Shown: one piece after another, positions 1,755-29,190 of the stretch
How positions within the stretch are numbered: position 1 is the stretch's first letter
Layout of the letters: each line of letters starts with the position of its first letter
DNA from: a virus
IMG/VR virus record: IMGVR_UViG_3300043449_002694
Location: 1 to 29,270 of that record
Reading direction: 5' to 3' (one strand)
Length of the DNA: 29,270 nt
Position numbers and translations under genes: made by a program
Notes under the pieces: generated by a model
Told to the model about the DNA's origin: nothing
Databases searched by the model: none
Seen by the model: the letters and a program-made list of their open reading frames with translations, nothing else

Positions 1755-2180
1755 GTGAGTGCAAACAAATTCGCCGGTCGTTGTTCTGGTTGTGGCGCAC
1801 AAGTTGGCGCCGGGGACGGCGTGTACTCCGGCGGCAGCGTGTGGTGCGAATCTCCGAGTAACGGAGGCACGGTCATCATCGACGGCGAGGAGGTGTGGAT
1901 CGCGACCTACACGTGCCCCACGGGCCTGCGTAGCGAGGCACGTGCCATTCTGAGCGGTCGTGCGCAACGCGCCGCCTACCTTGCCAGTCCTGAATATGCG
2001 GCGGACGTGGCGGCGTGGGCAGAGCGCGACCGTCAACGTGCACGCGTGGATGCGCAACGACAACGCCGCGGCATGGTTACCTGCGGCCGTTGCGGCGGCG
2101 CAGGCGGGCACGCATCATGGCCCGGCTGGGCTTGTTTCGACTGCGCAGGCAGCGGCGAACTTCCAATCAACCTCGACTGA
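1755..2180 (+). CDS. DnaJ-type zinc-finger protein (141 aa)
   Basis: The start is GTG, fixed by AAGGAGACC five bases upstream. The N-terminus has a Cys cluster (CSGCG at about residues 10-14) and an SGGSVWCES segment. The middle is a charged Arg-rich helix (RDRQRARVDAQRQRRG). The C-terminus carries CGRCGGAGG and CFDCAGSGE, the CxxCxGxG pattern of DnaJ cysteine-rich domains. No J domain is present, so it is not a co-chaperone in the usual sense. Phage proteins of this design often bind nucleic acid or protein through zinc, but its partner is unknown. It lies between two zinc peptidase-type genes. Confidence 0.75.
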   Translation: MSANKFAGRCSGCGAQVGAGDGVYSGGSVWCESPSNGGTVIIDGEEVWIATYTCPTGLRSEARAILSGRAQRAAYLASPEYAADVAAWAERDRQRARVDAQRQRRGMVTCGRCGGAGGHASWPGWACFDCAGSGELPINLD

Positions 2181-2211
2181 TCATCAACACACGAACCAAG
2201 GAGACCAACCA
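2178..2211 (+). promoter_or_regulatory. repeated start-associated leader, copy 5
   Basis: TGATCATCAACACACGAACC followed by AAGGAGACCAACCA, with a three-base insertion (ATC) near the head compared with copy 4. The TGA is the preceding stop, and the ATG at 2212 follows directly. Confidence 0.8.
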
Positions 2212-3081
2212 ATGTCCGTTTACGAAGACGTAACCAACCGCATCATCGTTGCTCTCGAGACCGGCGCAGCCGATCCGAAAGCCTGGCAACGGCCATGGGC
2301 CGCAATCAGTCAACGACACACGAACGCCGCCGGTCGCCCGTACCGTGGCATCAACACAATGCTGTTGGGTCTGCACGCCGCCGCCAGCGACTACACGTCC
2401 ACGACATGGGGCACCTACAACCAGTGGCAGGGACTCAACTCGCAGGTGCGCAAAGGCGAGAAGGGAGTCCGTGTCGTGTTGTGGAAGTCCACGCAACGGC
2501 ACAACGACGAAGACGGCACTACCCGCAACAGTTTGTTCGCCACAACCTTCTCCGTGTTCAACGCCGCGCAGGTTGACGACGCAACGAACAGTGCGGCGGT
2601 TCGATCCGAACAGGACCGGCCCGTGCACAACAACGACGAACGACTGCCTGACGTTGACGAATGGATCGCAACGACCGGCGCCAACATCAAATGGGGCAGC
2701 GATCAGGCCGCCTACAACCCGATGCTTGACTACATCGTGATGCCGTCGTTCGAACAGTTCGAGGACGCGCCGTCGTTCTACGGCACGACCGCCCACGAAC
2801 TGGTGCACTGGACCGGTCACGAGTCCCGGCTGGCTCGAGACCTCAACAATCGATTCGGCGGCGAGGCCTACGCCGCGGAGGAGTTGATTGCGGAGTTGGG
2901 TTCGGCGTTCGTTGCGGCACGGCTCGGATTCGAAACGACGCCGCGCCTCGACCACGCCCACTACATCAAGCATTGGTTGCAAATTCTGCGCAACGACTCC
3001 CGCGCCGTGTTCACTGCGGCAACGAAGGCGCAGGCTGCTGCCGATCACTTGTGCGGCACTGACACCGCCGGCAACGACTGA
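2212..3081 (+). CDS. ArdC-like anti-restriction protein
   Basis: A 289-residue protein with the ArdC layout. The N-terminal ssDNA-binding-type domain (about residues 1-110) shows PYRGINTMLLGLHA, then TWGTYNQWQGLNSQVRKGEK. The C-terminal zincin-like domain has TAHELVHWTGHESRL (about residues 190-205, HExxH) followed by EAYAAEELIAELGSAFVAA, whose Glu probably completes the zinc site. ArdC of plasmid pSa protects incoming DNA against type I restriction, and ArdC-like domains are frequent in phage and plasmid DNA-injection proteins. Here it is probably an early anti-defence protein; the exact target cannot be read from sequence. A longer frame from 1960 runs through the previous gene and is rejected because the leader sits at 2178-2211. 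Confidence 0.92.
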   Translation: MSVYEDVTNRIIVALETGAADPKAWQRPWAAISQRHTNAAGRPYRGINTMLLGLHAAASDYTSTTWGTYNQWQGLNSQVRKGEKGVRVVLWKSTQRHNDEDGTTRNSLFATTFSVFNAAQVDDATNSAAVRSEQDRPVHNNDERLPDVDEWIATTGANIKWGSDQAAYNPMLDYIVMPSFEQFEDAPSFYGTTAHELVHWTGHESRLARDLNNRFGGEAYAAEELIAELGSAFVAARLGFETTPRLDHAHYIKHWLQILRNDSRAVFTAATKAQAAADHLCGTDTAGND

Positions 3082-3113: not shown

Positions 3114-3908
3114 ATGGACATGGAACGACACCTCGAACGGCACGGGCCCATCAGTTACACGACACACGACGACGCAAAGGATGCGTGGCGTTGGTTTCGT
3201 GCAACGAACGGACTGTCCGCAACTGACAGACCACTGTTCACGGCGCCGACTGGCAACGTGAAGTTCAACAAGACGGATGCGGCCGTGTACGGACTCGCAC
3301 TCGCTCCCGCAGACAGCAGCGGCGACAACGTGTGCCGGTTCTTCTCGCACGAATGCCGCCGCAACTGCGTCGCATACGCCGGCAAAGGCGGCATGCCGCA
3401 GGTGCAACGTGTGCGAGTCGTGCGAACCAAGTTCCTTGCCACGTACCCCAACGAGTTTGCAACGCTGATCGCTCACGAAATCGCCGGCGCAGTCAACAAA
3501 CACGGCGTGAACCTGCGGATCAGGATGAACACCTTCTCCGACCTTCGGTGGGAACGGCTATGGCCTGAGTTGTTCGAACGGTTCGCCGGAGTCCGTTTCT
3601 ATGACTACACCAAATGGTCGGTAGCGGATCGTCAGAACCTGCCGGCGAACTACCGGCTGACGTACAGCGCCGACGAACGATGGATCAGTAAGAACATCAC
3701 CGGTCACGTTGCGAACGGCCACAACGTGGCCGTTGTGTACAACGTGAAGCCGTCGGCGCCGTTGCCCGCACACGACATGGGTCTCCGTGTCATCGACGGC
3801 GACAAGTCGGATGATCGATTCATCGATCCCGTCGGCGTCATCGTCGGATTGCGAGCGAAAGGAACGCTGCGCAACGGCCAGTGGCGCATGGTGCGGACTG
3901 CATCGTGA
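3114..3908 (+). CDS. GP88-like protein (Cys-cluster phage protein)
   Basis: A 264-residue protein resembling the actinobacteriophage 'gene product 88' family. The family pattern I recognise is a Cys cluster followed by an aromatic Ala-Gly motif, then a strand and an FYxYTK motif. Here these are NVCRFFSHECRRNCVAYAGK (about residues 71-90), LRIRMNTFSDLRWERLW (about 130-146) and GVRFYDYTKWS (about 159-169). Its biochemical role is unknown; the spaced cysteines suggest metal or Fe-S binding. A second ATG two codons in (MDM) is possible, but the leader spacing favours the first. It is the last gene before the terminator at 3914. Confidence 0.72.
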   Translation: MDMERHLERHGPISYTTHDDAKDAWRWFRATNGLSATDRPLFTAPTGNVKFNKTDAAVYGLALAPADSSGDNVCRFFSHECRRNCVAYAGKGGMPQVQRVRVVRTKFLATYPNEFATLIAHEIAGAVNKHGVNLRIRMNTFSDLRWERLWPELFERFAGVRFYDYTKWSVADRQNLPANYRLTYSADERWISKNITGHVANGHNVAVVYNVKPSAPLPAHDMGLRVIDGDKSDDRFIDPVGVIVGLRAKGTLRNGQWRMVRTAS

Positions 3909-4511: not shown

Positions 4512-4964
4512 ATGCCCGAAGACAACAACAACGAACCGTCGTTGCGATTCACGGCCGCCGTGATCCGCGAAGAACTCGAAAGCAGTTCCGTCCACCAGTT
4601 CCTCGAGCCTGCCATGATCGAATGGGCAATGGGTCTCACCGATGAGGTTTGCGAACGGATCGGTGCCATCGCCTACGAAAGTGACGCACTGCACGACACG
4701 TACAGTGCTGCCATTGCTGATGCCGCACGATCCGTGTTCGCATCGGGCCAGTGGGCAAAGCACCTCAACGGTCGCATCCACTGGATGGACGCGTTGACAG
4801 TCGAACAGTGCGCCGCACTCACCGCTGCGCAGCAACTGGTTGAACGCCTCAACAATGCAGTGAATGTTGATATCTACACTCTCGAGGACATGTACTGGCA
4901 ATGCAGTGGCGCTCTCGAAGACATCCACCGTGTGTTCTTCCGCGACGTGGAGGGAACACGATGA
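4512..4964 (+). CDS. hypothetical phage protein (150 aa)
   Basis: The start is chosen from leader copy 10. The protein is acidic and largely helical, with no membrane segment. Notable stretches are AVIREELESSSVHQFLEPAM near the N-terminus, a His/Trp-rich HLNGRIHWMDAL in the middle and LEDMYWQCSGALEDIHRVFF near the end. It overlaps the next gene by four bases (ATGA), so the two are probably translationally coupled. I recognise no family. Confidence 0.7.
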   Translation: MPEDNNNEPSLRFTAAVIREELESSSVHQFLEPAMIEWAMGLTDEVCERIGAIAYESDALHDTYSAAIADAARSVFASGQWAKHLNGRIHWMDALTVEQCAALTAAQQLVERLNNAVNVDIYTLEDMYWQCSGALEDIHRVFFRDVEGTR

Positions 4965-5272
4965 GTCTTTGGTTCCAGCAGCAGTACGTTGATCCGATCC
5001 TCAACGGGACGAAGACGTGCACGATCCGAACGCACACCCGCAACGTGCCGGCTGTCGGAACGGAGTGCGAATTCTCAGTGGGGCCACGAACGCCGTTCGC
5101 TCGTGCAGTGATTCAGTCGGTCGTGCCGGTGACGGCGCAACAACTAACGGACGACGTTGCACGCGCCGATGGATTCGCGAACGCGGCGGCGATGCGTGAC
5201 GAATTGCGGCGCCTCTACCCGTCCGTTCGTCGGTTCGTTCTGATCCGTTTCGCCGTGATCAACGACGCATGA
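4961..5272 (+). CDS. ASCH-domain protein
   Basis: A 103-residue protein that opens with SLWFQQQYVDPILNGTKTCT, then IRTH. This is the ASCH signature of an aromatic start, 'ILxGxKTxTIR', and a following beta barrel; the end (VRRFVLIRFAVI) supplies the last strand. ASCH domains are PUA-like folds that bind RNA or, in some bacterial members, hydrolyse N4-acetylcytidine. Phage copies are common and their function is mostly unknown. The start overlaps the upstream stop as ATGA and has no leader copy, unlike most genes of this arm. It is the last rightward gene; a strong hairpin follows at 5305. Confidence 0.8.
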   Translation: MSLWFQQQYVDPILNGTKTCTIRTHTRNVPAVGTECEFSVGPRTPFARAVIQSVVPVTAQQLTDDVARADGFANAAAMRDELRRLYPSVRRFVLIRFAVINDA

Positions 5273-17814: not shown

Positions 17815-18843
17815 TTACGGGAGCAACGCGAGGATGCGCCGCGCATGGTTGTTGAATGTTCGGTCGGCAATCGCTGCTCGTGCTTTGTTTGCCGCTTCGG
17901 TTCGTTGGTCATCGTTGTTGATTGCCCAACGGATTATTGATTCCAGTTCCTTGGGTTCGTTGATGATTGGCAACATCGGGAACAACAAGTCGGATTCGCC
18001 GCGCGATTCTCGAGCGAAGAAGGTGCCAGTTGCTGCCAACTCAACTTCTCGAGGGCCCATAGCCCAACCTTCGGCAAGGTGCGGTTTGTTCGCCTCGATC
18101 GTTCCATAACCGCGACCTGCCCTGTAAAGATTTGCTGACACCCGGCTGCGTTGATATATGCGGCTCGCTTGTTCATTGTCCAAACATTCTTCCACGTGAT
18201 GAACAAGAAATGAGCGGAGCCGCGATTCAATATCGAGGTGGGCCCAGTGCCCGCCAAGCGCTACGGACAGTCCGTCCCAATTGACCTGTTCGAAGAATTC
18301 GACGCGTGAAGGATAACCGGTACCCACAAAGGCGAAATCCCACAACGTCGGCGCTTCATTGTCGGGCCGGTGCCGCTCTGGCCTGTAACTATGCGGCACG
18401 TAGAAGGTGCGCAATCCTCGTTGCCGGTACTTGTCGAGGTTGATTGGATCGTTGACCACAACCAAGTCAGGCATCGCCGCTTCAGCAACAGCAAGTTGTT
18501 TGTCGTCTTCGTACGGAGACTCCGTATAAAGAGCAACGATTTGATGCGGCCGGTGTTTCCACAAATCCCACGTGAACTGATTGATGAAGAACCCCGAAAT
18601 GACAATCACAACATCGGGCATGAATTCGTAACACTTAGCCTCCAAATGTTTGTTGACCATTTGGATTGCTTGTTCGGTGTCGTAATGCCGTCCGTCAATT
18701 TCCACGTTGGTGTAGAACGCCAGCCGGTCGTTCAACTCGAAACCACGCACCTCGTGGCCCAATGCGGCAAAGGCTTCCGCATAGCCGGAATACACATCGG
18801 CAACCGAGAATTCAGGGCCGGGGTGCACCAACAAGATTCTCAT
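17815..18843 (-). CDS. CgeB-like glycosyltransferase (GT-B fold)
   Basis: A 342-residue protein with a Rossmann-like start, MRILLVHPGPEFSVADVYSG, then EAFAALGHEVRGFELND. The pattern continues with PDVVIVISGFFINQFTWDLW and PDLVVVNDPINLDKYRQRGL. The C-terminal part, EGWAMGPREVELAATGTFFA followed by RESRGESDLLFP, matches the donor-binding region of CgeB-type glycosyltransferases. It should transfer a sugar from a nucleotide-sugar; acceptor unknown. The ATG overlaps the preceding GT2 stop (ATGA), so the two are coupled. An in-frame extension to 18900 lies inside that gene and is rejected. It lies directly before the major tail gene. Confidence 0.88.
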   Translation of the reverse strand: MRILLVHPGPEFSVADVYSGYAEAFAALGHEVRGFELNDRLAFYTNVEIDGRHYDTEQAIQMVNKHLEAKCYEFMPDVVIVISGFFINQFTWDLWKHRPHQIVALYTESPYEDDKQLAVAEAAMPDLVVVNDPINLDKYRQRGLRTFYVPHSYRPERHRPDNEAPTLWDFAFVGTGYPSRVEFFEQVNWDGLSVALGGHWAHLDIESRLRSFLVHHVEECLDNEQASRIYQRSRVSANLYRAGRGYGTIEANKPHLAEGWAMGPREVELAATGTFFARESRGESDLLFPMLPIINEPKELESIIRWAINNDDQRTEAANKARAAIADRTFNNHARRILALLP

Positions 18844-19391
18844 ACTGAACGATGCTGCCAATCGCCCATGCGATATGTCCACGTTGCAATCGGTATGCAC
18901 AAGAACCTAGCGCCGCTCTCGAGAGCACGCAGCCAGAAATCCCAATCCTCATGCCGTGTGGTGTCTAGATGGTCGTCGTGTTTGTAGCCGCCAAGTTCGT
19001 GGAACAAGGTGGTACGGATTGCTGCACACGACGGAATGAAGTTGTCGGTCTGCAACCGAGTTGCATCGAATGGGACAGCAAAGCGATTGCGTGCCATTCG
19101 ACCCTCGACTGCGCACCACGTGTACACGATGTCCGCCGTGTTGTTCTTCAAGAACGGTTTGATTACTTCGAAATGATCCGCTTCGAGCAGGTCGTCATCG
19201 TCCAATCGGAACAACCATTCCGTTTGCACACGTTGTGCCAGACCGTTCAAGACTTTCGCCGGGCCTTGCCGGTCGTGATCAAACCCAACGTGCCAGCCAG
19301 CCGGCGCAAGCGTTTGTGCCGCTATCGATTGCGCACAATCGGCAAACAGCGCTCGTCGTTCCGGCAACGTAGCCGTAATCACTTCAATCAT
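18840..19391 (-). CDS. GT2-type glycosyltransferase (GT-A fold)
   Basis: A 183-residue short family-2 transferase. It opens with IEVITATLPERRALFADCAQ and continues to the metal-binding EWLFRLDDDDLLEADHF (DDDD at about 64-67). The acceptor-side motif THEDWDFWLRALE-like region occurs as RHEDWDFWLRALESG (about residues 146-160), with ED as likely catalytic pair. It is shorter than most GT2 enzymes, ending soon after this motif. The ATG at 19391 overlaps the tail terminator stop (ATGA); a TTG at 19400 is the alternative. It is coupled to the CgeB-like gene, which suggests successive sugar additions. Confidence 0.9.
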   Translation of the reverse strand: MIEVITATLPERRALFADCAQSIAAQTLAPAGWHVGFDHDRQGPAKVLNGLAQRVQTEWLFRLDDDDLLEADHFEVIKPFLKNNTADIVYTWCAVEGRMARNRFAVPFDATRLQTDNFIPSCAAIRTTLFHELGGYKHDDHLDTTRHEDWDFWLRALESGARFLCIPIATWTYRMGDWQHRSV

Positions 19392-19786
19392 TGGGCCCAA
19401 ACATCAACGGACAACTCCGCTGAGTAGTACCGCGTCGTGTCACCCATGACTCCATAGGACCGCATTTCAACAACTTGTGCGTACTGGCACTGTCCGCCCA
19501 AGGTCGGATCGTCCTCGATTGCCTTTGCAATTGACTGGTTGCCTTCGTCCGCTACGTACTCGTCAAGCAGCCGCTGGCCGCCTTCTGCGTTGATCGACGC
19601 TGCCAGAACATGAATCGTGACGCGCACGTTGGCGGCGCCGTCGAAAGTTTGGCCGTACCGTATTGATTCGGGCACGAGGATTGCGCATGGAACTTGTGGC
19701 GACTCAGGCACCGTGGGATAAATGCGCAGGTTGGGGATTGCATGCAGCGCATTAGCCAACCCGGTGCGCACCTCTTGAAGATTCAT
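19388..19786 (-). CDS. tail terminator / head-tail completion-like protein (132 aa)
   Basis: Starts with an ATGA overlap on the connector stop. The N-terminal helix (LQEVRTGLANALHAIPNLRI) and the later strands (RVTIHVLAASINAEGGQRLL, then the end SAELSVDVWAQ) fit tail-terminator-type proteins that cap the tail tube and meet the head connector. The gene stands between the connector and the glycosyltransferase pair. The assignment rests on position and fold-like pattern. Confidence 0.68.
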   Translation of the reverse strand: MNLQEVRTGLANALHAIPNLRIYPTVPESPQVPCAILVPESIRYGQTFDGAANVRVTIHVLAASINAEGGQRLLDEYVADEGNQSIAKAIEDDPTLGGQCQYAQVVEMRSYGVMGDTTRYYSAELSVDVWAQ

Positions 19787-20513: not shown

Positions 20514-21281
20514 TTATGCGTCGATTTCGCCTCGCACTCGAGCAAGTTCCTGTTGTGCATCCCAAGTTTCCTCAGTCAGGAAGATGCCGCCTTTGTCGTG
20601 TGATGTCTTGACCGCCGTGTTGACGTAGGCGGGACAATCAATGCCGGCAACACGAACGAAGAAGGAGAAATCTTCTCCGAATGGATCGTTTCGTTTCGGG
20701 TGAGTGACCTGGCTGAACCAATGCGGCCCGTACTGCTCTCGAATCTTCTCCAACACGCGTCGGTGAACAACAAAGAAAGCGGCACCACTGGCCGCAACTT
20801 TGACCATTGCGTTGCGCGGATAGTCAGTAATGACTTGGAAGCCGGCTTCGTCATCATTCTCGACCCATCGATAAATCGTTGGGCAGTGCCGATAGATTTC
20901 CGCTTGAGTTTCCCAGTCGGTCTCGCCGCCTTTCTTCAACGCAAAGGCAAGACCTCCAACAATGGGCCGCTCGTTCGCATCAGCGGAAAGAAGCAGGCTT
21001 GCTACTGCATCATGAGCGAAACCCATATCGGCGTCGCAGAACGCCAACCATTCGCTGTTGTCCTCGAGAAAGTTTGCAACAACGTCGTTGCGGCCTCGAA
21101 CTATTTGGCCTGATCCAACACGTTGCGCGAGCACCTTCGGTGCCCGCCCTGTTCGCCCAATTTCGTACGCCATCATCCGCGCAAATGAGAATGCGAACGA
21201 GGCGCTCACTACACCGGGGTGGATGTAGGCAAAGGTGATCGACGGGTGCCGAAGCCTTGCCGGCTTGGTCCGTTTGCTCAC
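20514..21281 (-). CDS. GT-A type glycosyltransferase
   Basis: A 255-residue protein with a GTG start overlapping the preceding stop (GTGA). After PSITFAYIHPGVVSASFAFS comes GSGQIVRGRNDVVANFLED and the metal-binding DxD in WLAFCDADMGF (DAD at about 83-85), which identifies a GT-A nucleotide-sugar fold. A later acceptor-side region contains GAAFFVVHRRVLEKI and DPFGEDFSFFVRVAG, with ED as the probable base. This enzyme is close in type to transferases placed among structural genes of some actinobacteriophages. Sugar and acceptor are unknown; a virion protein is a reasonable acceptor because the gene lies next to capsid and connector genes. Confidence 0.9.
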   Translation of the reverse strand: MSKRTKPARLRHPSITFAYIHPGVVSASFAFSFARMMAYEIGRTGRAPKVLAQRVGSGQIVRGRNDVVANFLEDNSEWLAFCDADMGFAHDAVASLLLSADANERPIVGGLAFALKKGGETDWETQAEIYRHCPTIYRWVENDDEAGFQVITDYPRNAMVKVAASGAAFFVVHRRVLEKIREQYGPHWFSQVTHPKRNDPFGEDFSFFVRVAGIDCPAYVNTAVKTSHDKGGIFLTEETWDAQQELARVRGEIDA

Positions 21282-25318: not shown

Positions 25319-25469
25319 CAGTCTTGATCTCCACAAGGTCGTAAGCGGCCCAAATCGCACCGGCTGCAATGACAAAGAATCCGGTGAACGGCCAAGGTGA
25401 AACGAACCCACCGGTTGCGCCCGCAATAATACCGACGCAATAGCAACTCGCTGCTTTGATCATGCCCAT
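25272..25469 (-). CDS. small membrane protein between TerL and portal (65 aa)
   Basis: Two hydrophobic stretches, SCYCVGIIAGATGGFV and PFTGFFVIAAGAIWAAY (about residues 8-23 and 27-43), separated by SPW, are followed by a charged C-terminus. It overlaps the TerL stop and extends 47 bases into the portal gene. An ATG two codons later (25463) would give the common ATGA overlap with the TerL stop and may be the true start. The role is unknown; small membrane proteins in packaging modules are sometimes lysis or head-maturation helpers. Confidence 0.6.
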   Translation of the reverse strand: MGMIKAASCYCVGIIAGATGGFVSPWPFTGFFVIAAGAIWAAYDLVEIKTDGDTKNAAPRRNGWR

Positions 25470-26962
25470 GCACCGAAGAATTCGCGCGCCGGCACCGGCG
25501 GCTTTGTTAGTTCACTGACGGCGAGCGCCGCTGCAATGCAGGCGTCGATATGCCGACGAGACTTGCCTTTAGACAATGTCCAGCCGCGGTCGCTTTCGCG
25601 GCGCACCGCAGCAAGAACATGATTGGTCAAAGTCGGATCGTCTTCGTGTGCGATTTCGCCGCCAATGATTGCTTCGTAGAAGCGGCCGCAAATCGGGATC
25701 ATTCGTTCGATTGACTGCGGCATTTCCAACATCGGGAATCCTTCGTCGGCAAGCATTTGCGCAGGCACTTCAAAGAATCGTGGGTCGTAACTGATGGTCT
25801 GCACCCGATAGGTATTCGATAATTGTCTGACGTATTGCATCACTTCTAGGTGATCAATTCTTCCGCCGTCCGGTTCCCAAACCCGTGATCGGATCACAAT
25901 GCGGTCATCGACTTTGCCGGCGACGACGACGGCTGTCGCGTCATATTTGAGCGACACGTCGATGCCAATGGTGACGTGTTGGCCGTCTTGCAATTTCAGG
26001 TCCGATTGGCAGCGAGACCACGCACCGGGCCTATCCGACAACCAATTAGATTCGACGGCATCAACCCAAAGATTTGTTCGTTTGGTACGAAACTCATTCT
26101 CAGGAATCTTGGGCGGCAAATTGGCTAGGAAATCATCGCCGGCAACGATGTCGTTGAACCCAGGGTTCGATTCGGCCCATGTTGTTTCTGCGGTCCAATC
26201 CGCTTCGAAACTTGCTGCTGGTTCCCACCATGCAAAGAAGAACCGGTCGTCTTTGATTTCGCCGCGGACAACCTTCTGCCCATATTCGTAGAGGCGATAC
26301 CCCAAGGTTGGTTGGCCGTTACTTCGCACCTTTGCGCCGGCAGTAGTGATCCCAACAACCATTGCTTCACGTCGTGCACCTGATCCCAGGTTCATGACGG
26401 ACCACAAATCGTCGTCGTTCTGTACATGCACCTCGTCAAAGATGACGGTTGTGGGACTCAACCCTTCTTTCAGCGGCGCATCAGAAGAAAGCACCCGATA
26501 CACGGAACCGGTCTCGAGAAACTCGATGGCGTCGCGGTACGTCTTCGTGATTCGTCCCAACTCAGGATCAAGTTCCACCATTCGCCTTGCCATACCAAAG
26601 CAAATGCGGGCTTGTTCACGATCGCCGGCTACGGAGTAAACCTCGCCGCCGGCTGGCCCAAGAAACAGGCCGTGCAATCCGATGCCTGCACCGAGTGCGG
26701 TCTTCCCGTTCTTCCGCGGCATGCCAATCAAACCTTGCCGATACAACAGGGTGCCATCGGCCCGTTCGGTGAACAATGCTTTGATCAACTTGGTTTGCCA
26801 GTCTCGCAACCAAAGCAGTTGGCCGGCTGGTGCAGCAATCGTGTCCTTGGTGGCGCGGCAATAGGTTTCGATGAATTTAATGACTTCGTCGCCGCGTGTC
26901 TTTCTGCGCCTCGTCGTTGTCAACCAACGAGGCGGCCATGAGCCGTTAGAGGTTTCGCTCAC
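25460..26962 (-). CDS. terL: terminase large subunit
   Basis: A 500-residue packaging motor. The ATPase has Walker A GMPRKNGKT (about residues 80-88) and Walker B TTVIFDEVH (about 171-179). The nuclease domain that cuts concatemers has acidic residues in TIGIDVSLKYDATA (D335), SYDPRFF (D393) and RHIDACIAAALA (D473). This is the Terminase_1 design of HK97-like phages. It uses a GTG start that overlaps the TerS gene by 17 bases, so translation is probably coupled. Confidence 0.96.
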   Translation of the reverse strand: MSETSNGSWPPRWLTTTRRRKTRGDEVIKFIETYCRATKDTIAAPAGQLLWLRDWQTKLIKALFTERADGTLLYRQGLIGMPRKNGKTALGAGIGLHGLFLGPAGGEVYSVAGDREQARICFGMARRMVELDPELGRITKTYRDAIEFLETGSVYRVLSSDAPLKEGLSPTTVIFDEVHVQNDDDLWSVMNLGSGARREAMVVGITTAGAKVRSNGQPTLGYRLYEYGQKVVRGEIKDDRFFFAWWEPAASFEADWTAETTWAESNPGFNDIVAGDDFLANLPPKIPENEFRTKRTNLWVDAVESNWLSDRPGAWSRCQSDLKLQDGQHVTIGIDVSLKYDATAVVVAGKVDDRIVIRSRVWEPDGGRIDHLEVMQYVRQLSNTYRVQTISYDPRFFEVPAQMLADEGFPMLEMPQSIERMIPICGRFYEAIIGGEIAHEDDPTLTNHVLAAVRRESDRGWTLSKGKSRRHIDACIAAALAVSELTKPPVPAREFFGAWA

Positions 26963-27377
26963 GGCGCAGGCGTTCTAGTTGTGAGGCTGCGGAGACTTCT
27001 GCAAGGCCCAATCGTGCACGATCGGTTGGTGTCATACCCAACGCCGAAAGATTCTTTGCAATTGAGTCCTCGAGCGCTCTGAGTGCTGACCTGTCTCGCC
27101 AATGGTTCTCCGTGAAGACACGATGGCGCAACACGGATCGCTCATCGACTTGTTCGCAAACAAGCAGTGCCAAATCGATGTCGGTTCGATCCGAAACCCA
27201 GCCGTGCGCGCCAGACCAAATCCGTTCCCACAAATCCCGACCGTGAGTAGACAGCGGACGCGGCGGCGCCGGTACTTGAATGGGTGCCGGCAATAGCGCG
27301 AGAGGCGCCGGCAAAGGCCGTCCGCCGGGGTTACCCGTTGCTCGTTTCCGTTCGGTGGGTTTCGGTGGTCTTCCCAT
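26946..27377 (-). CDS. terS: terminase small subunit (P27 type)
   Basis: The N-terminus MGRPPKPTERKRATGNPGGR is the hallmark of P27-type small terminase subunits. A Pro-rich stretch follows and then helices: GRDLWERIWSGAHGWVSDRT and EDSIAKNLSALGMTPTDRAR near the end. It recognises packaging sites and loads TerL. The length (143 residues) is usual. ATG at 27377 lacks a strong Shine-Dalgarno; it lies three bases after the upstream TAA. Confidence 0.92.
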   Translation of the reverse strand: MGRPPKPTERKRATGNPGGRPLPAPLALLPAPIQVPAPPRPLSTHGRDLWERIWSGAHGWVSDRTDIDLALLVCEQVDERSVLRHRVFTENHWRDRSALRALEDSIAKNLSALGMTPTDRARLGLAEVSAASQLERLRRERNL

Positions 27378-27380
27378 TGT

Positions 27381-28595
27381 TTACGTCGGAATCATTGATC
27401 GTCCATGCGCTTCTGCAAGCAGTTGCAACGCTGCGGTTCGGTCTTCGTATGCGGGCCCGCAGTACTCGAACACGGCGCATGGTCTCGAGCCGTGCCGCCA
27501 GTTATCGACAAGTTGCGCATTGGGCCCGTGGACTATGCCTTTGGCGTTGCCTGCCTTCTGCTGTCGCAACGTGGTGTTCTTGACTGCGCTTGCCGTGTAG
27601 CCGGCACCATAACCGGGTCGTTGTTTCAACGACCAACGCCGTGATCGATCGAACGCATGAATCAAAGGCGGATGGGCGGGGTACGTGCGCAACCGTTTGT
27701 TTGCATGCCGGTATGAAGCACCCAATCCGTCCAACAATACAAATGCCAACCCAAGCCCTTGCCAGTCCGGCAACGTCACCACCCGCGACACACCCATGAT
27801 GTTCTTTGTCTTTGGGTGCGGACGATGCAACAAGCCGGCAAAGGCGACTGGTTGATCATCCACAAACGCCGCATAGCAACGAGCCGCTCGATGAAGGTGA
27901 GCAGTCAAATAGTGAAACGGAGCGAACAACTGCCACGTGGAATACGGGACCGTTCGGATTTCAACGTCGAGCCTGGGGCGGGGTTGAACCGACCTCCAGG
28001 CAAAGGTTCGTTGTGCCACGTCAATCACCCAATCGGGTTGCAACCATTCGAGTACGTCGTAATGGCACGTGACAGCAACAAACTGGCGGTTGTTCTTCCT
28101 GATCCATTTCTGGATTGCATTGGCGCCAATCTTGGCAACCTGTCGATCAACAACACTTGTGAATTCGTCAACAACAATTGGTTTGTCTGCCGGCGTGTCG
28201 AGTAGCAGCCGTGCCAACGTCACCCGAAACTGTTCGCCGGTTGAGAGCACGTGGTACGGCCGCAACCATGCGGGAATCGTGTTGAACCCAACGGCGCTGC
28301 ACGCCTGCGCCACGTCGTTGACCGAATGGGCAGCATCGAAATCATCGATGACGCTGGCGTCAGTCCATTCGCATGTTGCCGGTTCGCCAAAGGCCGCGCG
28401 GGCAATTGTTGATTTGCCTGCACCTGATGGCCCGACGATCAAACCGACATTCCACGGTTTCGTTTCCCACGCGGCGTCGATGCGCCATTCCAACTTGTGG
28501 CGTTCTTCGGGCGGCACGTCAAACATTGACGACAACTGGCGTGCCCTCGCCGTGTTTGATACCGGCGTATCAACGGAAACTTCGATCAACGGCAC
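27381..28595 (-). CDS. ABC-type ATPase fused to a GNAT-like acyltransferase domain
   Basis: A 404-residue fusion. The N-terminal half is a soluble ABC ATPase: Walker A GPSGAGKST (55-63), signature LSTGEQ (117-122), Walker B PIVVDEF (139-145) and H-loop TCHYD (H178). There are no membrane helices. The second half has a GNAT-like acyl-CoA site, VSRVVTLPDWQGLGLAFVLL (269-288), with QGLGLA as the pyrophosphate loop. It continues with YPAHPPLIHAFDRSRRWSLK and a basic C-terminal region. ABC-acetyltransferase fusions are known as a predicted class (COG2401-like). The Mu Mom enzyme, a GNAT-fold DNA modifier, suggests a base-modification role, but this is inferred. It lies seven bases after the ParB-like gene. 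Confidence 0.85.
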   Translation of the reverse strand: MPLIEVSVDTPVSNTARARQLSSMFDVPPEERHKLEWRIDAAWETKPWNVGLIVGPSGAGKSTIARAAFGEPATCEWTDASVIDDFDAAHSVNDVAQACSAVGFNTIPAWLRPYHVLSTGEQFRVTLARLLLDTPADKPIVVDEFTSVVDRQVAKIGANAIQKWIRKNNRQFVAVTCHYDVLEWLQPDWVIDVAQRTFAWRSVQPRPRLDVEIRTVPYSTWQLFAPFHYLTAHLHRAARCYAAFVDDQPVAFAGLLHRPHPKTKNIMGVSRVVTLPDWQGLGLAFVLLDGLGASYRHANKRLRTYPAHPPLIHAFDRSRRWSLKQRPGYGAGYTASAVKNTTLRQQKAGNAKGIVHGPNAQLVDNWRHGSRPCAVFEYCGPAYEDRTAALQLLAEAHGRSMIPT

Positions 28596-28602
28596 GATTG
28601 CC

Positions 28603-29190
28603 TCACATCATCAACGGTCGAACGGCAAAGCCCTCTTCGCCAAAGCGTTCAAGCAATTCCAGTTGTTGGTGTTCATCGACGCAGTCGATGACGATGGCGT
28701 ACGCGGCGCCACCCAGCACTGGGCCTTCTTCGACCGTTTCTGGCGGCTCGAGTTGAGCGATTAGATCATCCAAATCGTCGGCATCGAACCCGGTGCCGAC
28801 AAGGCCGGCTGCACTGATTGCCAATTCGGAGAGCACGCTGACGAGTGCGGAGTCGTCATATGACGCCTGATCGTTCAACCGATTATCGACCAGCAGAATG
28901 CGTAGTGCTTCGTCTTCATCGACTTCCACCAACGTGGCAGCGATGGTCTTCCAGCCGAGTGCCCGTGCTGCCTGCCACGTGTGATTGCCGGCAAGAATTT
29001 CCATCGTGGTCTTATTGACAACGATTGGTCGATACTGGCCGTGGATGCGCAACGACTCGCTGATTTGCCCAACGTCGCCTTGTCGAGCGTTGCGCGGATG
29101 CGGCTTTATTTCGTCAATATCGAGCGGAATTGTCTCCGTGATCGGAGAGTTGGGCGGCGGCGGCGCCTTCGTCTTCCTTGCAGTCGTCAC
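28603..29190 (-). CDS. ParB-like (Srx-fold) domain protein
   Basis: A 195-residue protein at the head of the packaging operon. After a Pro/Lys-rich start, the ParB N-terminal fold (about residues 20-105) is clear: IDEIKPHPRNARQGDVGQIS, then SLRIHGQYRPIVVNK with EILAGNHTWQAARALGWK and LRILLVDNRLND. No HTH DNA-binding domain like that of full ParB follows; the C-terminus is acidic (FDADDLDDLIAQLEPPETV). This single-domain type occurs in phages next to terminases and methyltransferases, and some act as CTP/ATP-dependent or nuclease-like factors. The GTG at 29190 has AAGGAGAGCAC upstream. Confidence 0.9.
   Translation of the reverse strand: MTTARKTKAPPPPNSPITETIPLDIDEIKPHPRNARQGDVGQISESLRIHGQYRPIVVNKTTMEILAGNHTWQAARALGWKTIAATLVEVDEDEALRILLVDNRLNDQASYDDSALVSVLSELAISAAGLVGTGFDADDLDDLIAQLEPPETVEEGPVLGGAAYAIVIDCVDEHQQLELLERFGEEGFAVRPLMM

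Follow-up and report, generated by a model that had tools for sequence, protein, structure and literature searches.

A ParB-like gene and an ABC-ATPase/GNAT fusion ahead of phage terminase genes form a predicted DNA-base acylation cassette

We found that a ParB-like gene and an ABC-ATPase/GNAT fusion, placed directly ahead of the terminase genes of a virus, form a cassette that we judge with some confidence to acylate DNA bases. Slightly less firmly, we hold it probable that this is a phage system in which an ASCH-domain protein from the opposite operon also takes part. The window, meaning the whole stretch of DNA that was analysed, is 29,270 nucleotides long (IMG/VR record IMGVR_UViG_3300043449_002694), and its features are collected in Table 1. 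An earlier note on this DNA had proposed that the gene pair performs ATP-driven, DNA-directed acylation. The proposal gained support from genomic context, namely a methylase slot, acyl-CoA supply genes in relatives, and a YqfB-like ASCH protein, but it is not new, as acyl base modification was already predicted for ABC-GNAT proteins in a passage of PMC7824862 that cites Iyer 2013. Since Tenacibaculum phage pT24, the example phage in that passage, carries a homologue of the window fusion (34% identity), the central idea of the note is the published prediction. As far as the passage describes it, the predicted class of DNA acyl-modification proteins is the same family (PHROG 11143) with the same predicted activity. 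The passage makes no mention of ParB, PanD, CoA-transferase, formyltransferase, or a YqfB-like ASCH, and none of the papers returned by our literature searches connects ABC-GNAT with PanD, CoA-transferase, or formyltransferase; Iyer 2013 may discuss some of these and may contain part of the neighbourhood evidence.

Table 1. Coordinates of the features in the window and in related loci (L numbers)
Feature	Location	Strand	Evidence or remark
ParB-like ORF, 195 aa	window 29190-28603	-	GTG start, AAGGAG ahead; Pfam ParB_N
ABC-ATPase/GNAT fusion ORF, 404 aa	window 28595-27381	-	Pfam ABC_tran and Acetyltransf_1; PHROG 11143
GNAT domain of the fusion, residues 196-404	window 27381..28010	-	AlphaFold2, PDB folds, conservation
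TerS, operon gene after the fusion	window 26946..27377	-	Pfam Terminase_7 8e-8; PHROG 83
TerL	window 25460..26962	-	Pfam TerL_nuclease 5e-20, TerL_ATPase 6e-17
ASCH protein	window 4961-5272	+	opposite operon; Pfam ASCH 3.6e-12
ArdC N-terminal domain and MPTase-PolyVal metallopeptidase	window 2167-3081	+	anti-restriction type protein
GP88 protein	window 3114-3908	+	PHROG 1617; no assigned function
Three glycosyltransferase-like genes	window 17815-18900, 18840-19400, 20514-21281	-	inside head-tail operon
ParB > ABC-GNAT > PanD > CoA-transferase	L027 6101-7212; L080 1796-2826; L084 1916-2967; L086 1975-2990; L092 6319-7507; L202-L232
Tandem ABC-GNAT genes flanking PanD and CoA-transferase	L086/L207 878-4138		one phage lineage
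Formyltransferase behind ABC-GNAT	L026 1823-2473; L030 6077-6694; L195 5125-5598; L233-L238
AdoMet decarboxylase directly behind ABC-GNAT	L106 4840-5214		Pfam 4e-17; one contig
ParB and ABC-GNAT in a planctomycete genome	L112 5310-7101		Aeoliella straminimaris

The gene order described in the earlier note held at every coordinate. A gap of 7 bases separates the ParB-like ORF from the fusion ORF, whose stop lies 3 bases ahead of the TerS start, with TerL next; this order and the Pfam matches of TerS and TerL confirm that the cassette sits directly before the packaging genes. Plausible ribosome-binding sites precede both cassette start codons, and a scan for promoters and terminators around the cassette gave signals not above chance.

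The note had also read four ABC ATPase motifs and a C-terminal GNAT loop in one protein, a description borne out by motifs, Pfam, and conservation. The fusion carries a Walker A motif (GPSGAGKST, residues 54-62), an ABC signature (LSTGE, residues 117-121), a Walker B motif (PIVVDEF) and D-loop (SVVD) within residues 138-150, an H-loop at H178, and the GNAT motif-A loop QGLGLA at residues 279-284. Both Pfam matches, to ABC_tran (3.4e-6) and Acetyltransf_1 (2.5e-6), exceed the curated cut-offs, and PHROG 11143, a widespread phage family without assigned function, aligns over almost the full length (E 2e-99). Among 87 diverged full-length homologues, conservation is 91-100% for the ABC motifs and for H228-Y229, R271, P276-D277, Q279-G280-x-G282, H308-P309, W321, and R371 of the GNAT domain, and at least 92% for the key residues of the ABC motifs and the motif-A loop; chance motif matches were ruled out on account of this conservation. 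AlphaFold2 modelled the C-terminal 209 residues as a GNAT fold (mean pLDDT 84, core 92-98), and the top PDB matches listed by Foldseek for this part were GNATs (E about 1e-5). With all ABC motifs and a C-terminal GNAT domain present, the protein fits the ABC-ATPase/GNAT family; the modelled fold and motif A (Q/RxxGxG/A, for CoA) place the domain in the GNAT superfamily, and CoA binding is predicted. The earlier note would have given up its idea for a C-terminal fold lacking an acyl-CoA site; the prediction returned a GNAT fold with a conserved CoA loop.

Identity as an ABC transporter was rejected, as no transmembrane domain or permease partner was found and the neighbours are ParB and TerS. 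The comparison with Mu Mom that the note had drawn extends to shared membership of the GNAT superfamily, but not to a sequence match. Mom is a phage DNA modifier of this superfamily that is expressed late, as proposed here, whereas it stands alone, acts on adenine N6, and has no ABC domain; membership was rejected since no Mom family appeared among the Pfam, PHROG, or PDB profile matches of the fusion. The RNA cytidine acetyltransferases TmcA/NAT10/Kre33 work alike, using an ATPase and a GNAT to make N4-acetylcytosine, although their ATPase is of helicase type and their substrate is RNA. The fusion motif A matches NAT10 weakly (E 0.24), and membership of this group was rejected because the fusion has an ABC ATPase and no TmcA Pfam domain.

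Matches to the fusion at 26-48% identity occur in 58 phage records (Gordonia, Streptococcus, Lactococcus P335, Oenococcus, Porphyromonas, Pseudomonas, Pasteurella, Aeromonas, Leptospira, Tenacibaculum, and others), and at least 585 viral-contig stretches in IMG/VR encode a relative. A scan of genome contigs returned only two bacterial loci. One ParB and ABC-GNAT pair was seen in a planctomycete genome, perhaps within a prophage. ABC-acetyltransferase fusions are also present in archaea. A PHROG search of 14 control genomes was uninformative because the generic ABC domain matches everywhere. Several phages of the Gram-positive hosts Streptococcus, Lactococcus, and Oenococcus, and also pT24, have separate ORFs annotated for the ABC and GNAT parts (L028, L029, L031, L199, L025), and the ABC part in such split-ORF phages often bears the misleading label 'iron siderophore transporter'. 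The PADLOC model mad3, from the MADS defence system, also matched the window fusion, mainly its ABC part (5.6e-12).

The ParB-like partner links the cassette to DNA methylases. ParB_N (2.6e-10) is its sole domain, and the protein matches PHROG ParB-like and ParB-methylase families as well as the PADLOC type II methyltransferase model, MTase_II (5e-15). It also has a conserved C-terminal element of ~30 aa (y.V.V.C..E..Q..ll..l..eG..Cr.L) that is common to ParBs next to ABC-GNAT. Such a gene lies directly upstream of ABC-GNAT, ending at its start, in 76 of 88 lineages; members without ParB, in Pseudomonas Komp_PAO1_1 and Porphyromonas phages, count against our preferred explanation. For the closest TerS/TerL relatives, the slot before TerS holds one gene, in which ParB is fused to N6_N4_Mtase (E 4e-24, 8e-18, and 2e-26 in three examples) and the ParB part is ~40% identical to that of the window (AGNHTWQAAK.LGW). 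Upstream sequence sufficed for this comparison in 34 control terminase loci; ParB occupies the slot in 21 of these, with a DPPY-type methylase fused in 21/21. Because the same ParB-type domain is fused to a methylase there in the TerS/TerL relatives, the ABC-GNAT gene occupies a DNA-methylase slot. The window therefore resembles phage ParB-DNA methyltransferase fusions in its kind of ParB and in the slot before TerS, but a separate ABC-GNAT gene replaces the methylase. According to a 2025 survey (PMC12704722), phage ParB folds are frequently fused to DNA methylases, and ParB-fold proteins bind NTP; among the latter, a ParB-acetyltransferase fusion binds GTP.

Further genes accompany the cassette in relatives of the window. 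One subclass has an operon of ParB, ABC-GNAT, aspartate decarboxylase (PanD), and class III CoA-transferase, in that order and often closed by a convergent ASCH gene, with Pfam E-values of 1e-28 to 1e-33 for PanD and 5e-8 to 1e-10 for CoA_transf_3, the latter above cut-off. The cultured example is Rhodococcus/Gordonia phage Jace (gp85-gp88), which was the only one of 50,697 phage records with this CoA-transferase. When viral contigs were scanned with the CoA-transferase alone, 32 loci in 19 clusters were recovered, and ABC-GNAT lay directly upstream in 31 of them, while the remaining contig begins inside PanD; the phage enzyme was thus seen only with ABC-GNAT. PanD is present in 27 of the 32 loci, or in 15 of the 19 distinct lineages defined by the CoA-transferase. 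The phage CoA-transferase is shorter than typical class III members and has an invariant GDT..G motif. The phage PanDs keep K9, Y22, the self-cleaving G24-S25, R54, Y58, and N72 (E. coli numbering), and a PDB search matched them to aspartate decarboxylases at 4e-23. In one phage lineage, a tandem pair of ABC-GNAT genes flanks PanD and the CoA-transferase.

Ten Gordonia phages and Pseudomonas phage Komp_PAO1_1 have a formyltransferase directly behind ABC-GNAT, and a viral-contig scan with the formyltransferase alone found ABC-GNAT in 6/6 loci. Several records label this gene as a tRNA-methyltransferase or GAR formyltransferase. Among relatives of solved structure, the 10-formyl-THF dehydrogenase N-domains are nearest to it (E 7e-36), and HoxX is matched as well (7e-9). 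By alignment, the Asn of ordinary formyltransferases is absent from both the phage enzyme and the dehydrogenase domain. In the N-domains of 10-formyl-THF dehydrogenase and HypX/HoxX, the formyl group is thought to be passed to a phosphopantetheine thiol (PMC8748788, PMC6802093). The phage enzyme differs from these relatives in being a stand-alone gene behind ABC-GNAT, where it may form formyl-CoA. The simplest reading is that these partners are dedicated acyl-CoA suppliers for the GNAT domain, with cassettes that carry PanD and class III CoA-transferase probably using beta-alanyl-CoA and those with the formyltransferase probably using formyl-CoA. An AdoMet decarboxylase directly behind ABC-GNAT on one contig may supply another donor.

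ASCH-domain genes are a recurrent neighbour. Counted over 99 non-redundant ABC-GNAT clusters, an ASCH gene lies directly downstream of ABC-GNAT in 35, and 6 lie elsewhere in the loci, which is a 48-fold difference in density (p 3e-28) between 78 kb with 35 genes and 649 kb with 6; 30 of the 35 adjacent genes are convergent with ABC-GNAT (p 2e-5). No ASCH gene was seen in the 80 control terminase loci (673 kb), but the mutual relatedness of these controls makes the comparison within loci the stronger test. The variety of ASCH subfamilies adjoining ABC-GNAT suggests repeated recruitment. Most adjacent ASCHs are of a GxKxxExR type, with Glu in place of YqfB's catalytic Thr; judged from their sequences, they are as likely to be readers or to have another activity as to remove the mark, and a general deacylase role for ASCH was rejected for lack of this Thr in most of them. 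When ten adjacent ASCHs were scanned with the NCBIfam YqfB model, only the four with KxxTxR matched, three clearly and L074 only at E 0.053.

The window ASCH gene can be read as a longer ORF from 4901, but GGAGG precedes the ATG at 4961. Its distance of 22 kb from the cassette in this record counts against our preferred explanation. A PDB sequence search returned YqfB entries as the sole matches, with marginal E-values, and the NCBIfam N(4)-acetylcytidine aminohydrolase model matched over the full length at E 1.3e-6, scoring 28.7 bits, which is below its cut-off of 93; tblastn against the phage records gave no matches. The AlphaFold2 model (pLDDT 91.5) superposes on E. coli YqfB (9kyf/9kyh) with TM 0.83-0.85 and rmsd 1.7 A, and YqfB crystals took ranks 1-3 of the structure search (E 4e-8 to 6e-8; next ASCH 2e-5). 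The two proteins share the fold, the catalytic residues Lys21, Thr24, and Arg26, and Tyr89, but differ in overall sequence (24% identity), in the catalytic Glu74 and in His70, which align with Asp and Val, and in the sub-cut-off NCBIfam score; these two substitutions and the low score count against our preferred explanation. The abstract of Iyer 2013 reportedly predicts that ASCH and EVE domains read modified bases in DNA. Known substrates for hydrolysis by E. coli YqfB are N4-acetylcytidine, N4-acetyl-deoxycytidine, and the triphosphate of the latter, and its K21A, T24A, and R26A mutants are dead (PMC6972931). The window ASCH is a predicted N4-acylcytosine amidohydrolase, or else a modified-base reader.

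Taken as a DNA-base acylation system, the cassette could work as follows. ParB would be the DNA-targeting subunit that brings the complex to DNA, and the ABC dimer would spend ATP on binding DNA, opening it, or moving along it, or on gating the complex. The GNAT domain, by its predicted fold and CoA loop, would move an acyl group from CoA onto the exocyclic amino group of a base. Marking would take place late, alongside expression of the packaging genes, and would probably shield progeny DNA from restriction; the gene position makes marking before packaging or against restriction, as raised in the earlier note, plausible. The YqfB-like ASCH, from the opposite and probably early operon, may be an eraser, a salvage enzyme, or a reader, whose targets could be, for example, incoming DNA or released nucleotides. 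The acyl group would differ between phages according to their supply genes. No acyl-CoA supply gene was found in the window, a 29-kb record that may be a fragment with such a gene lying outside it, and acetyl-CoA is for this reason the likely donor here. Given DNA-base acylation, we hold an acetyl group in this phage to be fairly probable, and given acetyl, cytosine N4 is marginally favoured as the target. N4-acetylcytosine is the most specific prediction, because the window has no supply gene and has a YqfB-like ASCH, and overall its chance is well below even.

We also considered that the product is instead N6-acyl adenine, as with Mom, and that the ASCH reads modified bases without hydrolysis, which we find somewhat unlikely. 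Mom is, to our knowledge, the only characterised GNAT acting on DNA. ASCH domains are predicted readers of modified DNA bases, with 6mA cited (PMC11037411), the majority of adjacent ASCHs are without YqfB's threonine, and the ParB-linked N6_N4_Mtase fusions may target adenine or cytosine. Set against these points are the missing sequence match to Mom and a window ASCH of YqfB type, for which the substrates tested so far are N4-acylcytosines. Acylation of a protein (host RNA polymerase, a ribosomal protein, or terminase), as by phage Rac, with ParB and ABC as scaffolds, appears quite improbable to us. Phage GNATs modifying host proteins are known (PMC7824862), and the Foldseek top matches include protein N-terminal and ribosomal-protein acetyltransferases such as NatE subunits and RimI; yet in this slot the same ParB also occurs as a fusion with DNA methylases, the partner ASCH is PUA-like, the window ASCH is closest to an N4-acylcytosine hydrolase, and a dedicated supply of unusual acyl-CoA would not be expected.

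It is unlikely that PanD and CoA-transferase only raise host CoA pools, outside the cassette chemistry. PanD does make beta-alanine, a CoA precursor, but a class III CoA-transferase shifts CoA between acids and does not make CoA, and the confinement of the phage enzyme to ABC-GNAT loci (31/32; other contig incomplete) also speaks against this explanation. Very improbable, we consider, is a partition or DNA-condensation pair of ParB and ABC serving packaging, with a regulatory or degenerate GNAT. The ParB_N domain and the position directly before TerS/TerL would suit it, whereas the GNAT motif is nearly invariant and some members lie away from terminase (Tenacibaculum pT24, Nonlabens P12024S). 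The window ParB lacks an HTH or dimerisation domain and no ParA was found among the neighbouring genes, and identity as a ParB partition protein was rejected on these grounds.

The preferred reading, DNA-base acylation, can be extended more tentatively to a modular and reversible system, with a common ParB/ABC-GNAT writer, dedicated acyl-CoA makers, and ASCH readers or erasers. The routes might then run from aspartate through beta-alanine to beta-alanyl-CoA, from formyl-THF to formyl-CoA, or from plain acetyl-CoA, and if so, the new bases would be N-beta-alanyl-, N-formyl-, and N4-acetyl-cytosine, or their adenine equivalents. A decade-old prediction of an unspecified acyl base is in this way narrowed to named candidate products, a named candidate removal enzyme, and cultured phages that can be named for each kind of cassette: Gordonia/Rhodococcus phage Jace for PanD and CoA-transferase, Gordonia phage Yago84 for the formyltransferase, and Lactococcus phage P335 for the bare cassette. 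If true, acylated bases would join the known phage DNA modifications through a natural route from amino acid to amino-acyl DNA bases, hundreds of genes labelled 'ABC transporter' or 'hypothetical' would be explained, and ASCH domains, which are common and mostly uncharacterised, would gain a DNA-modification context.

Other genes of the window were also noted. The plus strand encodes the anti-restriction type protein and the GP88 protein listed in Table 1. For the three glycosyltransferase-like genes, candidate roles are the decoration of virion proteins or of a modified base.
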